Source: Natrinema salinisoli (GTDB taxonomy: Archaea; Halobacteriota; Halobacteria; Halobacteriales; Natrialbaceae). From it: a DNA stretch of 64,000 nt. The notes under the pieces were generated by a model. The model had not been told where the DNA came from. It saw only the letters and a program-made list of their open reading frames with translations, and did no database searches. Position numbers and translations under genes: made by a program. Below are positions 1-16,698 of the stretch, piece after piece (position 1 is the stretch's first letter; each line of letters starts with the position of its first letter). The DNA lies in assembly GCF_020405205.1 (NCBI RefSeq), contig NZ_CP084469.1:1798001-1862000 (forward strand), given 5' to 3'.

Positions 1-84
1 GAGTCTGGTGCCCTCGTGGTCGAAACCGACGACGGCCGGGTGACCGTTTCGGCGGGCGACTGCGAGCACCTGCGTCCCGTCTGA
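1..84 (+). CDS. birA: C-terminal end of a probable biotin-protein ligase (partial)
   Basis: The window opens inside this gene. The frame from base 1 encodes the last 27 residues and stops with TGA at 82-84. The tail ends in VSAGDCEHLRPV, which I recognise as the C-terminal beta domain ending of haloarchaeal BirA proteins, where a small SH3-like barrel follows the catalytic domain. BirA attaches biotin to carboxylase subunits and, when it carries an N-terminal HTH, represses biotin genes. Neither the catalytic domain nor an HTH can be seen here. The biotin importer at 14.6-16.7 kb fits the assignment. Confidence is limited by the short fragment. Confidence 0.55.
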   Translation, partial: ESGALVVETDDGRVTVSAGDCEHLRPV

Positions 85-9761: not shown

Positions 9762-12700
9762 TTATTCACCAGCGCCACCGGGCGTCTCAACTGGTGGCGA
9801 TTCGCCGTTTTCGTCGGCCGCACCTGACTGATTAGGCTGTTCGGGCTGTTCGGGCTGTTCAGGCTGTTCGGTTCCCTCTGGTTGTTCAGGTTGTTCGGGC
9901 TGTTCGGGCTGTTCAGGTTCCTCAGGTTGTTCCGGCTGGTCTGGATCTTCGAGTGACGGTTCCGGACCGGCGTTGCCATCGCTCCCTGTCGCTTCCGCTG
10001 GTGTCGCCTCGACCGTCACCGTGGCCTGATCGTCGTCAGTCGCGACCGTATGCGTCGACGTGCCCTCCGGCAATGTCGACGAAAACGGGATCTCAGCCGA
10101 TTGCCCGCCCGCGAGCGATACGGTGGACTGGGCGACGGCCTGCTCGTCGACGCTGTAGGTCACCGTCTGCGTTCCCTCGAGATCCCCCTGATTCTCGACG
10201 ATCGCGGTCACCGGAACCTCCTCGCCGGCTACCCCGGATTCGGGAGCCGAGACATCAGTAACCGCGAACTCGGCGGGCTCCCCGCTTTCCTCGATCGTGA
10301 CGGTCGTCTCGACCGTCTCGGTTTCGGTCGCCACCTCGAGCGGGTAGTCGCCGGGCTCGAGAGCGGCAGTTTCGAACGCGAACGAAACGGTCTGGGTCTC
10401 GCCGGCCTCGAGCGTGACCGATTCCGAGCCGACGGTTTCGTCGCCGATCGCGAGCGCGACGGTCTGGGTTCCCGCCTCGCCGCCGAGGTTCTGGACTTCC
10501 GTCGCGACCTCGAGCTGGTCTCCCCGTTCTACCGGACTGGTGACCTCGGTGATCGAAACGCCGAACGCAGCAGGCTCGGACGGCTCGATCTCGCCGGCCG
10601 GCGGCGTCGCCGCGGTCACCGGGTCATCGTAGCCGTAGTTCGCGAATTCGACCTGCCAGACCAGCCGTTCGGCGTCGCTTTCGGGCGTCCACTCGACGGT
10701 GAACGTGTTTTCGCCCGGCTCGAGTTCGTTCGGGGGCCCGTCCGTCGTCGTCCCGTCGACGAACTGACTGTTTCCGGCCATCGTCGCATTGTTCGGGTTC
10801 TCGTACCCGAACGTCACGTCGATGCCGTCCTCGGTTGGCGTCGTTTCCACGACCGAAAGCGACGGCAGGTCCGGTCGGGCCGCATCGTCGCACGCCTGCG
10901 CCGAGGGGTTGCCGTAGTCGATTCCAGCGAAGGGAATCGCTTCCGGCGAACTGATCCCGGAGATGTACGTGCCGAATGTGCCGTAGTCGGGCACCTCGAC
11001 GAATACCTCGTCATCCTCGGTCGTCACGTTCCGCTCGTCGCCGATTTCGAAGACGATCGTACCGGTAAACGGTGCCTCAACGTCGTCGCCAGCGGTGACG
11101 AAATCTTCGATGATGGTGTTCCCGAACCCGGCCTGATCGTAGAACCCGGTGCTCGCCGCGACCTGGTCCCCTTCCTCGAGCGACGCGGTGACGACCGCGC
11201 GCGAGCAGCTCGTGAATTCGACGTCGAAGTCCTCGACGTCGCCGTCGACCGCGTACGCGACGCTATCCGTTTCGAGGGACGTCCCGTCTTCGGCCGCGAC
11301 GACCGCGACCTCGAGCGTCGCGTTCTCCGCGAGCGGCGGCTCGAGGTCGAACTCCGTCGGCCCGATCGTTTCGTTGGCCGCGAACGTCTCGCTGACCGCG
11401 AGCTGGGTGCCGTTTTCGTCGGTGACGGTGATCGCGTACTCCACCGACGCGTTGGCCGACGTGACGGTGATCGTCTCGCCATCACCCGTCTGATCGGCCA
11501 CCGTGAGGTTCGCCGTCGGTTCTTCCGGATCGGGTTCCACGACCGCGTACTCGATCGAGTCGTTCGCGAGTACCGCGTCGTCCGCCGCGGCGCGAACGGA
11601 CACGTCGACGGTCGCGTTGTCTTCGAGTGGCGGCTCGAGGTCGAGGGTCTGCTCTGCGACCGTCTCGTTGGCCTCGAACGGATCACTGTCGACGCGCTCG
11701 CCGTCGTATTCGGCCGTAATGACGTACGGCACGGTGGCGCTCGCCGCTTCGATCTCGAGGGTCTCGCCCTCGCTCTCCTGATCGTCGAGCGAGAGGGTCG
11801 CCTCGGGCTCGACGGGTTCATCCGCGATGGTGTACTCGATCGTTTCGCTCGCGAGGGCAGTACCGTCTTCACCGACGACCGAAACATTGACCGAGGCGTT
11901 CTCTTCAAGCGGCGGCTCGAGGTCGAGCGAGAGGTTCGTCACCGCTTCGTCGGCCGCGAACGCGTCGCTCTCGACGGTTTCGTTGTCGTACTCGGCGGTC
12001 ACGGTGTAGGGGACGGACGCGTTCGCCTCGTCGACGATCAGCGTCTCGCCGTCACCCTCCTGATCGTCGACGGACAGCGTTCCGGTCGGCTCCGCCGGTT
12101 CGTCCGTGACCGTCACGAACGCGCCGTCGAGAACCGGTGCGCCGCTCTGACTGGCGTACGGCACGTCCTGATCCCCGTCAGACTCGGCGTACTGGAACGT
12201 CTCGTCGTCGTTCGTGTCGTGGTGGACGACCGCCACGAGTACGCCGCTCTCGTTCAGCGGCTCGTCGAGTTCGATCGTGACGTTCTCGTGCTCGCCGGCC
12301 TCGAGATAGCTCGAGACGCCTCGGACGTCGTCGGGATCGGCGTCGACGGCGACCCCCTCGTAGACGGCCACGAAACCGCCTTCGGAGAGCGAAACCTCGT
12401 CGATCGTGACCTCCTCGCCGTTCCCCTCCTGTTCTCGGAAGTCGATCGAGGCTGTCCCCTCGACCCGATCGATCGTCTCGATCCGCTGGACGACTTCCAC
12501 CTCGACGTGTTGGGTGATCACCGTCACGTCGTCGGTATCGGCTTCGATCGCGAACGCGGTCGCATCGGCCGCAGTCTCTTGGGTCAGCGTCTGAAGTTGG
12601 ATGATACCGATCCGCTGGGTCTGGACTACCTGAGCGGTCTCCGTCGCGGCAGTACGTGCCGCGATCTGGACCTGCGTCACCGTCGCTTCCTGAGACTGGA

Positions 12701-14144
12701 CGAGCGCGCCACTCGCAGCCCCGGACGCGAGGCGCTGGACCTGCGTTACGTCGACGATCTGCATCTGGGTCACCGCGCCGTCACCGGCACCGAACGCGGC
12801 CGCCTGAACCTGTTCGACGGTGACCTCCTGTCGCTGGAGCGCACTGGTAACCGCGCCCTCCGCGGCACCGGTCGCTGCGGACTGAATCTGCGTGACCGAC
12901 ACCGTCTGTCGCTGGACGAGCGCACCGCCCGCGGCCCCGTCAGCGGCGGCCTGAATTTGCTCGACGGTCGCCGCTTGACTCTGCGAAATAGCACCTTTCG
13001 CCGCACCGAAGGAGGCTTCCTGTACCTGCGTGATCGAGATTCGCTGGATCTGCACGATGGTGACGGATTGCACCTGCTTCACCGATCCCCGACTCGCACC
13101 GCGAGCCGCGGCCTGCGTCTGCTCGACCGAGACCTCCTGTTCCTGCACGAGCGCACCCTTCGCCGCCCCGGCCGCGGCTTTCTGAATCTGTTTGATCGTG
13201 GCTCGCTGGCGCTGCTCGGTTTCGACGCGCTGTTCCTGTCGGACGTCCACCCGTTGCTCCTGTTCGAGCGCAGCCCGCGTGCTCCCCTCGAGCGAGCCGG
13301 CGGCCGCACCGATCGCCGCGTGCTGTACGTGTTCGAGAGTTACCTGCTGCCGCTGTTCGATCGATATCGACTGATATTGCGTCAGGGCTCCGTAGGCCGA
13401 CCCCTGCGCGGCTTCCTGGATCTTCGAGACTTTGCCGACGTCTTTCGCGCCCGCCTCGCTCGCGGCACCCGCGGCCGCACCCGCACTCGCGACCTGTATC
13501 TGTTCGGCACTCACGCGCTGACTCTGGGCGACCGCACCGTGTGCCCCTCCCCAGGTCGCGCTCTGTAACTGGGTGGCGTTTACCGACTGGGACTGCGAGA
13601 GTCCGCCGGCCGTCGCGCCGCCGACTGCGGCCTGGAGCTGCGTCACGTTCACTGACTGTTCCTGAATCAGCGTCCCGTGGACGGCACCCTTCGTCGCCGC
13701 TTGGACCTGCTCGGCCTCGACGGTCTGGGACTGCGACACCGACTCTCGAGCGCCCTCGAGCGCCGCCGTCCGCTGTTCCTGAGTCACCTCGATACCCTGG
13801 GATTGAACGAGCGCGATTCCCTGGTCGACGCCCGTCTCGACGGCCTCCGTCTGCTCCTGGCTGACCGTCGTTTGCGTGGTAGTACCGACGTCCGCTGCGG
13901 GCGGCCCCACCTCCACCGGGTCGAATTGCGAGGCAGCCGTCGGTTCCGTGTCCACCTGAGAATCGTCTCCCTGGAGTGTGGCCGCTCCCCCGCCACCGAG
14001 TTGCGATTCGATTGACGCGTCGACATCTCCGTTATCGGGTTCTGTGACCGTCTCGGGATTGCTGCCGAGTACCGGTAGCGCGACGATACTTCCGACCATC
14101 GCGGCCGCGACCAGCACGACGATCGTAGTACGACTCGGTCTCAT
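9762..14144 (-). CDS. giant exported protein with 23-residue Gln-rich repeats, Ig-like modules and Pro-Glu-Gln tail
   Basis: A 1,460-residue protein. The Sec-type signal is at 1-28 (hydrophobic core IVVLVAAAMVGSIVALPV). Residues ~90-530 form a long array built on QIQ-A-A-x-G-A-A-x-G-A-L-x-Q-x-Q-x-V units; the QxQ pairs at 146, 169, 192 and 215 are spaced exactly 23 residues, with looser spacing later. Residues ~565-680 resemble the haloarchaeal DUF7282 domain. Three ~100-residue modules follow at ~688-985 (each with a DLEPPL motif), then a cysteine-containing region, two CARDB-like domains (~1195-1385) and a low-complexity tail of about 12 PEQ units. No PGF-CTERM or membrane anchor is visible at the C-terminus. 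It is probably secreted or S-layer associated; the function is unknown. Confidence 0.88.
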   Translation of the reverse strand: MRPSRTTIVVLVAAAMVGSIVALPVLGSNPETVTEPDNGDVDASIESQLGGGGAATLQGDDSQVDTEPTAASQFDPVEVGPPAADVGTTTQTTVSQEQTEAVETGVDQGIALVQSQGIEVTQEQRTAALEGARESVSQSQTVEAEQVQAATKGAVHGTLIQEQSVNVTQLQAAVGGATAGGLSQSQSVNATQLQSATWGGAHGAVAQSQRVSAEQIQVASAGAAAGAASEAGAKDVGKVSKIQEAAQGSAYGALTQYQSISIEQRQQVTLEHVQHAAIGAAAGSLEGSTRAALEQEQRVDVRQEQRVETEQRQRATIKQIQKAAAGAAKGALVQEQEVSVEQTQAAARGASRGSVKQVQSVTIVQIQRISITQVQEASFGAAKGAISQSQAATVEQIQAAADGAAGGALVQRQTVSVTQIQSAATGAAEGAVTSALQRQEVTVEQVQAAAFGAGDGAVTQMQIVDVTQVQRLASGAASGALVQSQEATVTQVQIAARTAATETAQVVQTQRIGIIQLQTLTQETAADATAFAIEADTDDVTVITQHVEVEVVQRIETIDRVEGTASIDFREQEGNGEEVTIDEVSLSEGGFVAVYEGVAVDADPDDVRGVSSYLEAGEHENVTIELDEPLNESGVLVAVVHHDTNDDETFQYAESDGDQDVPYASQSGAPVLDGAFVTVTDEPAEPTGTLSVDDQEGDGETLIVDEANASVPYTVTAEYDNETVESDAFAADEAVTNLSLDLEPPLEENASVNVSVVGEDGTALASETIEYTIADEPVEPEATLSLDDQESEGETLEIEAASATVPYVITAEYDGERVDSDPFEANETVAEQTLDLEPPLEDNATVDVSVRAAADDAVLANDSIEYAVVEPDPEEPTANLTVADQTGDGETITVTSANASVEYAITVTDENGTQLAVSETFAANETIGPTEFDLEPPLAENATLEVAVVAAEDGTSLETDSVAYAVDGDVEDFDVEFTSCSRAVVTASLEEGDQVAASTGFYDQAGFGNTIIEDFVTAGDDVEAPFTGTIVFEIGDERNVTTEDDEVFVEVPDYGTFGTYISGISSPEAIPFAGIDYGNPSAQACDDAARPDLPSLSVVETTPTEDGIDVTFGYENPNNATMAGNSQFVDGTTTDGPPNELEPGENTFTVEWTPESDAERLVWQVEFANYGYDDPVTAATPPAGEIEPSEPAAFGVSITEVTSPVERGDQLEVATEVQNLGGEAGTQTVALAIGDETVGSESVTLEAGETQTVSFAFETAALEPGDYPLEVATETETVETTVTIEESGEPAEFAVTDVSAPESGVAGEEVPVTAIVENQGDLEGTQTVTYSVDEQAVAQSTVSLAGGQSAEIPFSSTLPEGTSTHTVATDDDQATVTVEATPAEATGSDGNAGPEPSLEDPDQPEQPEEPEQPEQPEQPEQPEGTEQPEQPEQPEQPNQSGAADENGESPPVETPGGAGE

Positions 14145-14582
14145 CGGACGATGCCTCCCGCCTCTGTACCCGTCGAATCCGTCGCTCCGGTTGCCATACC
14201 AGACCGTTTCCGAACACTTCGTCCGTCACGCACCCACTCTCCGGATACCCACCGCCGGTCTCCTCCCCGGAGCCCTGATTTCGCCTCGTTGTACCTCGAA
14301 CTGCCACCCTTCACACTACGGAATCGCATTTTCCCACACGGGGCGGAATCGGTCTATAAGATCGCCGGTCGTTTCAGTTACCGATCCGAGACAATACGTC
14401 CTTACTCCGCCCGTTCGACGAGGTGCAACCGTAGACGACCTGAAGAAGCCCCGAAAGTACGATTACCAACAATCAGACCGGTGTCGAGACTGTCCTCGAC
14501 GCTGGAAGGAATCACACTGTTTCGTCCCGAACTCGAGAGTGTCGACGCGAGCGATCCCACTTCGGAAAACATGTCAATAGCA
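14145..14582. other. intergenic region between the giant surface protein and bioY
   Basis: No convincing gene is present. The part next to 14144 should hold the promoter of the minus-strand surface protein, but I could not identify a clear TATA box for it. A TCTATAAGATC stretch at about 14351-14361 is the most TATA-like sequence. The bioY control region starts at about 14583 and is listed separately. Confidence 0.5.
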
Positions 14583-14630
14583 GTGATGTATATCTCGGAA
14601 ACCGAAGTCTTCATTCCGGTTTACGAACGA
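14583..14630 (+). promoter_or_regulatory. bioY promoter with a BirA-type operator
   Basis: A TATA-like TGTATATC lies at 14587-14594. Directly after it is the inverted repeat AAACC (14599-14603), 14 bases, then GGTTTAC (14618-14624). The known BirA operator consensus is TTGTAAACC, 14-15 bases, GGTTTACAA. The half-site core and the spacing fit, and the right half matches eight of nine positions; the left half is weaker outside AAACC. The predicted transcription start falls inside the repeat, so a bound repressor would block initiation. The ATG of bioY is at 14639. Confidence 0.65.
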
Positions 14631-14638
14631 CAGGGTCT

Positions 14639-15226
14639 ATGGCAACAGAGCAAAATTCCGTCGATCCCGTCGACGATACCGTCGTTCGGCAGTTCGCTCG
14701 AGCCGCACTGCTCGCGGCACTGATCGGCGCGACGGCAGCGGTGTCGATTCCCATACCGTTTTCGCCGGCACCGATCACGTTACAGGTACTGTTCATCTTC
14801 CTCGCCGGACTCGTCCTCGGCCCGGTCTGGGGGTTCGTTTCGCTCGTGCTCTACCTCGCCGCGGGGGCCGTCGGCGTCCCGGTGTTCGCCGGCTTGAGGG
14901 GAGGTTTCGGGGTTCTCCTCGGGAATTCGGGCGGCTATCTCTGGTCGTATCCGATCGCCGCGGCCCTGATCGGCTTCATCGTCCACCGCGGCACGGAACT
15001 CCGGGATCTCACTGCGGTTTGGCTCCCGGTCATCGTCGGTGCACTCATCGCAGGGACGATCGTCATCTACGGCATGGGGACGGCGTACATGGCCTGGCTG
15101 CTCGAGCTGGGTGCCTGGGAAGCCCTCAACCTCGGTGCGTTCCCGTTCATTCCCGGGGAGATTCTCAAGATGCTCGCCGCAATCGTCATCGTCAGATCCA
15201 GCGGACTCACCCCGGTTCGATCCTAA
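14639..15226 (+). CDS. bioY: biotin transporter substrate-binding subunit (ECF S component)
   Basis: A 195-residue membrane protein of the BioY family, about the usual length, with six hydrophobic segments from about residue 22 to the end. Recognisable stretches are ITLQVLFIFLAGLVLGP and GGFGVLLGNSGGYLWSYP, the latter matching the conserved GGxxxLxxPTGGYLxGF-like region that lines the biotin site. It binds biotin with high affinity and works with the ATPase and the EcfT protein that follow. It is first in the bioY-bioM-bioN operon (13-base gap to bioM) and is preceded by the BirA-like operator. Confidence 0.95.
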   Translation: MATEQNSVDPVDDTVVRQFARAALLAALIGATAAVSIPIPFSPAPITLQVLFIFLAGLVLGPVWGFVSLVLYLAAGAVGVPVFAGLRGGFGVLLGNSGGYLWSYPIAAALIGFIVHRGTELRDLTAVWLPVIVGALIAGTIVIYGMGTAYMAWLLELGAWEALNLGAFPFIPGEILKMLAAIVIVRSSGLTPVRS

Positions 15227-15239
15227 CGCCACCGAGACG

Positions 15240-15944
15240 ATGATCGAGTTCCAGTCGGTCTCCCACGCCTTCGACGACGTCGCCGTCCTCGAGGACGTTT
15301 CGCTATCACTCGAGGACGGCGAGTTCGTCCTGCTCGCGGGGGCCAACGGTAGCGGGAAGACGACGCTGTTGCGCCACTGCAACGGGCTGTTGACCCCCGA
15401 TTCCGGCGACGTGCTCGTCGACGGCACACTCGTCGCGGACGACCTGATCGCCGCCCGCTCGAGCGTCGGGATGGTGTTCCAGCACCCGCGCGACCAGTTC
15501 GTCGCCGCAACTGTCGGTGCGGACGTCGCCTTCGGTCCCGAAAACCTCGGGCTGGCGCGCGAGGAGATCGAGCGCCGCGTCGACGCGGCGCTCGAGGCGG
15601 TGAACATGGCCGGTCGGGAGGACGACCGAATCGACACCCTCTCGGGGGGCGAGCAGTCCCGCGTAGCGATCGCGGGCGCGCTCGCGATGGAACCCACGCA
15701 TCTCGTCCTCGACGAACCCTTCACCGGGCTCGACGAACCCGCGCGCCGCTCGGTCCTCGAGCGACTCGAGTCCCTCTCGGCCGACGGAACCGGGATCCTC
15801 CTCGCGACCCACGACCTACGTGACGTAACCGATCTCGCAGATCGCGTGATCGCCATGCGAGACGGGCGCGTCACCGTCGACGGACCGCCTGAGCACGCAT
15901 TGATCGAACTCGACGGGCTCGAGATCCGCGTTCCGGAGCCGTGA
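15240..15944 (+). CDS. bioM: biotin ECF transporter ATPase
   Basis: A 234-residue ABC ATPase of the CbiO/EcfA group. Walker A is GANGSGKTT at about 33-41, the Q-loop MVFQHPRDQF, the signature LSGGEQSRVAIAGALA, Walker B LVLDEPF, and the switch histidine is in LATHDL. It ends shortly after the D-loop region, as single-domain EcfA proteins do. The ATG at 15240 follows bioY by 13 bases; a longer out-of-context frame upstream overlaps bioY and is rejected. It provides the energy for biotin uptake, with the single ATPase probably acting as a homodimer. Confidence 0.95.
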   Translation: MIEFQSVSHAFDDVAVLEDVSLSLEDGEFVLLAGANGSGKTTLLRHCNGLLTPDSGDVLVDGTLVADDLIAARSSVGMVFQHPRDQFVAATVGADVAFGPENLGLAREEIERRVDAALEAVNMAGREDDRIDTLSGGEQSRVAIAGALAMEPTHLVLDEPFTGLDEPARRSVLERLESLSADGTGILLATHDLRDVTDLADRVIAMRDGRVTVDGPPEHALIELDGLEIRVPEP

Positions 15945-15993: not shown

Positions 15994-16698
15994 GTGCTGA
16001 CGTTCGAGCCCGACGAGACGCTCGCACACCGACTCGACCCCCGGAGCAAGCTGGCGGTCCAGATCGGGTTCGCCGCGACCGCCCTCGCACACCCGACGCC
16101 GCGAGCGCTGATCGTTCTCTCCGTCCTGACGGGACTCCTGCTGGCGGCAGCGAGCGTGTCGCTCCGTCGCACGCTCGTCGCCTACCGCTTCGCGCTGGTC
16201 ATCCTCGTTCTCGCACCGATACTGTCGGGTCTCACCCTCGGCCCGCCCTGGTTCGATCGACCGGCCGCCGTCACGTCGGGGCTGGCGAGCTACCGCGTCC
16301 TGCTCATCCTGCTCGTCAGCGCGGCCTACGTCAGATCGACCCCGGTGCGTGCGTCTCGAGCGGCGATCCAGCGGACGATTCCCGGAAAACCGGGACAGAT
16401 ACTCGGCACGGGTATCGCGCTCGTCTTTCGATTCCTTCCCGTGCTGCAGAGCGATCTCCGGACGATCCGCGAGGCGATGGCCGCCCGTCTGGGGACCGAA
16501 CGCAGCGCGATCGATCGCGCCAGCACGATCGGAACGCTCGGCATGACGCGCGCGTTCGACCGCGCCGATCGGCTCTCGCTCGCACTCCAGGCGCGGTGCT
16601 TCGCGTGGAATCCCACGCTTCCACCGCTTCGGTTCTCTCGTATGGATTACCCCGCGCTCGTCCTCGCCATCGGACTAGCGCTCTCCGCCTTCTACTAG
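15994..16698 (+). CDS. bioN: biotin ECF transporter transmembrane coupling protein (EcfT)
   Basis: A 234-residue CbiQ/EcfT-family membrane protein. It has the typical start LDPRSKLAVQIGF, four to five hydrophobic segments, and the cytoplasmic coupling helices. In place of the usual two Ala-Arg-Gly motifs it shows AARLG (in REAMAARLG) and QARCF, both keeping the key Ala-Arg. The start is a GTG at 15994 with a GGGAGGG ribosome-binding site 6-12 bases upstream, which decides the start. It sits 49 bases after bioM and completes the BioMNY importer. Confidence 0.93.
   Translation: MLTFEPDETLAHRLDPRSKLAVQIGFAATALAHPTPRALIVLSVLTGLLLAAASVSLRRTLVAYRFALVILVLAPILSGLTLGPPWFDRPAAVTSGLASYRVLLILLVSAAYVRSTPVRASRAAIQRTIPGKPGQILGTGIALVFRFLPVLQSDLRTIREAMAARLGTERSAIDRASTIGTLGMTRAFDRADRLSLALQARCFAWNPTLPPLRFSRMDYPALVLAIGLALSAFY

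Follow-up and report, generated by a model that had tools for sequence, protein, structure and literature searches.

The bioYMN locus and its inverted repeat

We analyzed a window of 64 kb from Natrinema salinisoli (contig C1, positions 1798001-1862000 of a 4.7-Mb genome) that contains an operon for a biotin importer of the ECF type. Three genes on the forward strand make up this operon: bioY (14639-15226), encoding the biotin-binding S component (Pfam BioY, E 3.7e-40; 93% identical to the BioY of Natrinema salsiterrestre), bioM (15240-15944), encoding the ABC ATPase of the importer (Pfam ABC_tran, E 1.5e-30), and bioN (15994-16698), encoding an EcfT-type transmembrane component (Pfam CbiQ, E 7.7e-15). 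The 3' end of birA, also on the forward strand, opens the window (1-84), and on the minus strand 5' of bioY lies an open reading frame of 1460 aa (9762-14144) with, by eye, many glutamine-rich repeats.

In front of bioY, we found the inverted repeat TCGGAAACC-GAAGTCTTCATTCC-GGTTTACGA, a predicted operator of the BirA type on the forward strand (14595-14626) that is separated from the bioY ATG at 14639 by 12 bases. Its arms (14595-14603 and 14618-14626) enclose a spacer of 14 nt, giving the form TCGGAAACC-N14-GGTTTACGA; they are complementary at 8 of 9 positions and could be extended to 10 nt at 90% in an inverted-repeat search. The core noted originally, AAACC (14599-14603) followed by exactly 14 bases and GGTTTAC (14618-14624), was present as described, but the coordinates given for the entire repeat (14596-14627) were shifted by one base. 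Upon searching the window for TCGTAAACC-N14-GGTTTACGA with at most 3 mismatches, we obtained a single match, compared to none in 100 dinucleotide shuffles. The same search of the 4.7-Mb genome returned four places (with 1, 2, 3, and 3 mismatches) and none for the reversed control, the bioY site ranking best (1 mismatch) and a site at the start of bioB second (2 mismatches). The fourth match (C1:1537765, 3 mismatches) lies inside an open reading frame and was taken as chance.

The expected conservation of the repeat upstream of bioY was observed in close and distant haloarchaea alike. BioY was present in 54 of the 61 genomes examined, and an N14 site scoring at least 14/18 (best site within 300 nt upstream) was found for 49 of the 55 bioY genes of relatives, compared to a shuffle null for these 55 genes in which 1 of 1100 sequences reached 14 and none reached 15. 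The six genes without such a site are those of G041, G043, G049, G050, G054, and G060, with G049 carrying an N13 site. A second, named collection of 80 bioY loci comprised 31 haloarchaeal loci, as judged by title, and 49 from methanogens and bacteria; here, 28 of the 31 haloarchaeal loci had a site of at least 16/18, all 28 with an N14 spacer, compared to 0 of 310 shuffles, whose scores stopped at 15. In 29 of 29 bioY genes, the distance from the first base of the site to the ATG is 44-46 nt, and across families the arms are kept while the spacers change. The length of the spacer varies in a few groups: in genus g22 (L273-L280), it is N13 at bioY in all six genomes that have the gene as well as at the sole bioB, and the N14 pattern was matched in 0 of 7 genomes, while family f9 combines N14 at bioY with N13 at bioB. 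Given this mixed case, we regard the covariation of spacer length as suggestive only. The raw tally of the spacer analysis (155 of 243 genomes) seems, judging from the sequences listed, to consist largely of coding noise, and its control was high as well.

Sites at bioB and at a biotin-carboxylase operon

Scanning 243 genomes of the order with at most 2 mismatches, we detected the N14 pattern in 152 genomes and the reversed control in 2. Among the matches listed, all 30 loci were located at either bioY (11) or bioB (19). Additional matches in G001, G114, and G222 fall within long open frames and were taken as chance; the matches in G009 and G013 have the same letters as that in G001.

Fetching bioB by homology, which finds the gene in 102 of the 243 genomes, we obtained a sample of 56 genes, all 56 of which carry the site (53 with N14 and 3 with N13) at scores of 15-18, with A, C, or T accepted at half-site position 5. 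In the shuffle null for 26 short bioB regions, 28 of 1300 sequences reached 14 and 3 reached 15. In all 75 records of a set partly selected by pattern, the bioB start codon falls on site position 22. A peak in AT content (0.88-1.0) occurs 5-9 nt 5' of the site. Because of this peak and the position of the start codon, the distance from TATA to start at bioB fits a leaderless mRNA. Upstream of bioB (L035:3-392) is the end of an open reading frame that we take, by eye, to resemble the large subunit of archaeal RuBisCO.

The site at bioB extends into the coding sequence. Its right arm, GGTTTACGA, starts on the third base of the start codon (GTG or ATG) and continues as GTT TAC GAR, which are codons 2-4. 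Codon 2 was GTT in all 56 genes fetched by homology, whereas within the gene bodies, as counted for 30 of these genes, GTT accounts for 28 of 807 valine codons. The count for codon 2 is inflated by relatedness, yet GTT stands there in eight families (f1, f4, f6, f7, f9, f10, f14, and f17). Residue 3 of BioB is Asp instead of Tyr in f9, f14, two of three f17 genes, and one of three f10 genes. In f17 and f14, GTTGAC is found in the right arm at both bioY and bioB, and BioB starts with Met-Val-Asp, with one f17 genome (G065) as an exception that has GTTCAC at bioB; f4, f6, and f7 show GTTGAC at bioY mixed with GTTTAC at bioB. The covariation of half-site position 5 (A or C) between the two genes is thus not strict, and we rejected it as proof of a common reader.

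Three genomes contain a second site of this kind (G016:C65, L235; G019:C7, L236; and G011:C73, L281), in each case followed by an open reading frame that corresponds to a truncated bioB start of 59-74 codons. Downstream of this truncated start there is a BioW gene in two of them, G011 (E 2.8e-68) and G016 (E 5e-58). The arrangement looks as if the operator had been copied together with the first bioB codons upstream of a biotin-synthesis gene, which would place another gene under BirA.

A weaker match in our own genome (C2:347135-347166; L037:1501-1532) lies on a 400-kb replicon, 81 nt before an operon encoding CT_C_D, CT_A_B, and a biotin carboxylase. A genome from another genus, G248, has a site (L370:3001-3032) 82 nt before the same type of operon, with a CT_C_D that is 91% identical. 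The two sites keep the arms and have unrelated spacers. On these two genomes, which represent two genera, we consider the biotin-carboxylase operon a probable third target. A LamB/YcsF gene is located near the carboxylase operon in our genome.

Promoter geometry at bioY

In haloarchaeal leaderless promoters, the BRE and TATA elements are positioned ~26-36 nt before the start codon. Passages of a study on haloarchaeal transcription give CGAAA as the BRE and TTWT as the TATA motif and report for H. volcanii that 72% of the protein-coding transcripts are leaderless and that 9% of the leaderless ones have native GUG starts (PMC4983044). Within the operator in front of bioY, we found a BRE-like CGAAG (14603-14607) followed by a TATA-like TCTTCAT (14608-14614), which together form a probable core promoter on the forward strand (14603-14614), 25-36 nt before the ATG. 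This assignment draws on conservation in the genus. Upon aligning 29 bioY genes of the genus on their ATG, we observed that the left arm, the spacer block with CGAAG (-36 to -32) and TNTT(G/C)AT (-31 to -25), and the right arm were nearly invariant save positions -30 and -27, with conservation also of the spacer and of the stretch down to the ATG. Across 76 distinct bioY sites (from 98 of 105 records above the score cut, partly selected by pattern), the AT content was flat at 0.26-0.45 over the 20 nt upstream and amounted to 0.82-0.99 at site positions 16, 17, 19, and 20. TCTTCAT, the TATA-like core found in the window itself, is a weak one. A promoter profile built from 34 genes of the window, whose starts were those of the longest open reading frames, was too noisy and was dropped as evidence. 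We infer that the bioY promoter is leaderless, with BRE and TATA lying between the operator arms.

The original prediction had placed the repeat between a TATA box and the bioY ATG, with BirA binding across the transcription start. In such an arrangement, the operator would still be that of BirA, and the bioY promoter would be GATGTATATC, just 5' of the repeat, with a start inside the right arm and a leader of ~22 nt. The TATA-like string does exist in the window, and bioB, with its AT peak upstream of the site, is organized in this manner. However, the region in question (-62 to -47) carries 0.05-0.86 bits per position in the 29 genus genes, the upstream flanks of the 76 sites lack an AT peak, and the spacer core is conserved instead, which makes GATGTATATC an unlikely bioY promoter. 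Hence, the earlier placement was correct as far as the letters are concerned but probably not as a promoter, and binding across the start did not hold up for bioY. The likely effect at bioY would be occlusion of BRE and TATA, with a site over the start being the geometry of bioB.

A TGTCA block at 14572-14576 (-67 to -63 from the bioY ATG), ~20 nt 5' of the operator, is also conserved in the genus (0.86-1.28 bits) and is perhaps an activator site.

BirA as the candidate reader and comparison with known systems

The complete birA gene (C1:1797146-1798084; L001:2146-3084) encodes a protein of 312 aa. Inspecting it for the N-terminal winged helix that a DNA-binding BirA should have, we found Pfam HTH_11 at residues 5-54 (E 7.1e-11), followed by the ligase and C-terminal domains (BPL_LplA_LipB, E 2.5e-18; BPL_C, E 3.9e-14), and a KWPND stretch that is invariant in 11 aligned relatives. 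A structure model, of low confidence with a mean pLDDT of 50.7, shows a helix-helix-helix-strand-strand arrangement at the N-terminus. Among 20 relatives, the 5' end of birA encodes the winged helix in 16, lacks it in three (G038, G051, and G054), and is diverged in one (G050), and in these latter four genomes the N14 pattern was found in none. BirA is missing from 15 of the 243 genomes of the order, none of which shows the N14 pattern; because the same 15 genomes also lack bioY (two of these by elimination), this contrast is confounded and not independent. Autoregulation of birA was considered but not supported, as no site with at most 3 mismatches lies near birA in its own genome and the best scores in 20 birA 5' regions were 10-13/18.

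Comparison with the bacterial consensus further points to BirA. Passages of PMC545781 give this consensus as TTGTAAACC-[N14/15]-GGTTTACAA, to which the right arm in the window is identical at 8 of 9 positions and the left arm at 7 of 9, with a spacer of 14, in line with the match in half-site and spacing that had been noted originally. Both arms deviate at position 2, as is usual in haloarchaea, and the left arm also has a deviating G at position 4. If another transcription factor read the operator and BirA just biotinylated its targets, one could understand why four genomes (G041, G043, G060, and G071) have a BirA with a winged helix and no good bioY site, three of which (G041, G060, and G071) retain the site at bioB. 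Yet, the arms fit the bacterial BirA consensus as well as sites at 22 of 49 methanogen and bacterial bioY genes, and the site is absent where BirA has no winged helix (three genomes, or four including the diverged one), so that we consider a different factor very improbable. We give practically no credence to a palindrome arisen by chance or to a conserved promoter element that no repressor reads. Such a reading would agree with the genus-wide conservation of spacer and downstream stretch, but the arms stay across families while spacers vary, and the same arms are found again, around unrelated spacers, at bioB and before the carboxylase operon.

Overall, the repeat in front of bioY is very probably a real binding site for the biotin-sensing repressor BirA, and on the sequence comparisons presented here the BirA reading is well supported. 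We assign a probability of about 0.84 to the repeat being the operator of a bifunctional biotin ligase/repressor BirA that controls bioYMN, with a straddled promoter at bioY and a covered start at bioB. By analogy with its family, BirA would dimerize on biotinoyl-AMP and repress transcription: with ample biotin, the loaded protein would pair up so that each winged helix grips one arm, at centers 23 bp apart. At bioY, where the promoter is probably leaderless, its BRE/TATA would lie between the arms, and because of this bound BirA would exclude TFB and TBP. At bioB, where the mRNA is probably leaderless, the operator would lie directly 3' of the TATA box and over the start codon, so that BirA would block the polymerase at the start. 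Since bioB would have no leader, the operator would there fix codons of an enzyme. We slightly favor the wider picture in which one repressor serves two leaderless promoters in two geometries, the bioB arm forces an otherwise rare GTT as second codon as well as Val-(Tyr/Asp) at the N-terminus, and the module looks, in some genomes, as if it had been copied before bioW.

To our knowledge, few archaeal repressor operators have a known ligand together with an essential ligase as their repressor. If the proposed mechanism is correct, haloarchaea would apply a vitamin switch of bacterial type to TBP/TFB promoters, one that is genetically testable in Haloferax or Natrinema, and would supply haloarchaeal tools with a natural promoter repressible by biotin.

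BirA operators in archaea were reportedly predicted by Rodionov, Mironov and Gelfand in 2002 (Genome Res 12:1507). Archaeal BirA operators as such have thus been in print since then, and the haloarchaeal case adds detail; what is new, as far as our searches go, is the half-site typical of haloarchaea, the pair of promoter geometries, and the reach of one arm into the bioB coding sequence. Among open papers, screened by title or abstract opening, we found no study of BirA regulation in haloarchaea. Passages of PMC3199775 state that BirA occurs in archaea and name Halobacterium as having both BPL and BirA. BioYMN is reported in Natrialba magadii (PMC3403918), with no mention of its regulation in the passages covered.

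The haloarchaeal protein resembles the Group II BirA proteins of E. coli and S. aureus (1bia, 4wf2, 8f8u, and 3rir) in possessing winged helix, ligase, and C-terminal domains in identical order, and it aligns with these bacterial repressors of known structure nearly over its full length, from residue 8-16 on (residue 16 for S. aureus). It shares SRAAxxKHIxxLR with the E. coli-type chain 8f8u, and the haloarchaeal SRAAVWKHIDGLR resembles SRAAINKHIQTLR of that chain, whereas the winged helix alone matches the PDB structures weakly (8f8u, E 0.078; 1bia, E 0.34). The operator, in turn, is like the BirA consensus operator in its palindromic 9-nt arms, its N14 spacer, its location before biotin transport and synthesis genes (bioY and bioB, as well as the biotin-carboxylase operon), and the loss of the site along with the winged helix. 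Among the methanogen and bacterial bioY loci (Clostridia, Lachnospiraceae, and Methanolobus), 22 of 49 have arms of the same type at scores of at least 16/18, compared to 1 of 490 in the null. Their spacers are N13 (12), N14 (9), or N16 (1), compared to N14 in 28 of 28 haloarchaeal sites, and the haloarchaeal half-sites are mostly TCGTAAACC, compared to TTGTAAACC in methanogens and bacteria, position 2 being C in 52 of 56 of the former and T in 39 of 44 of the latter. The haloarchaeal operator would further differ from the bacterial one in working on an archaeal core promoter that, at bioY, probably lies inside the operator itself.
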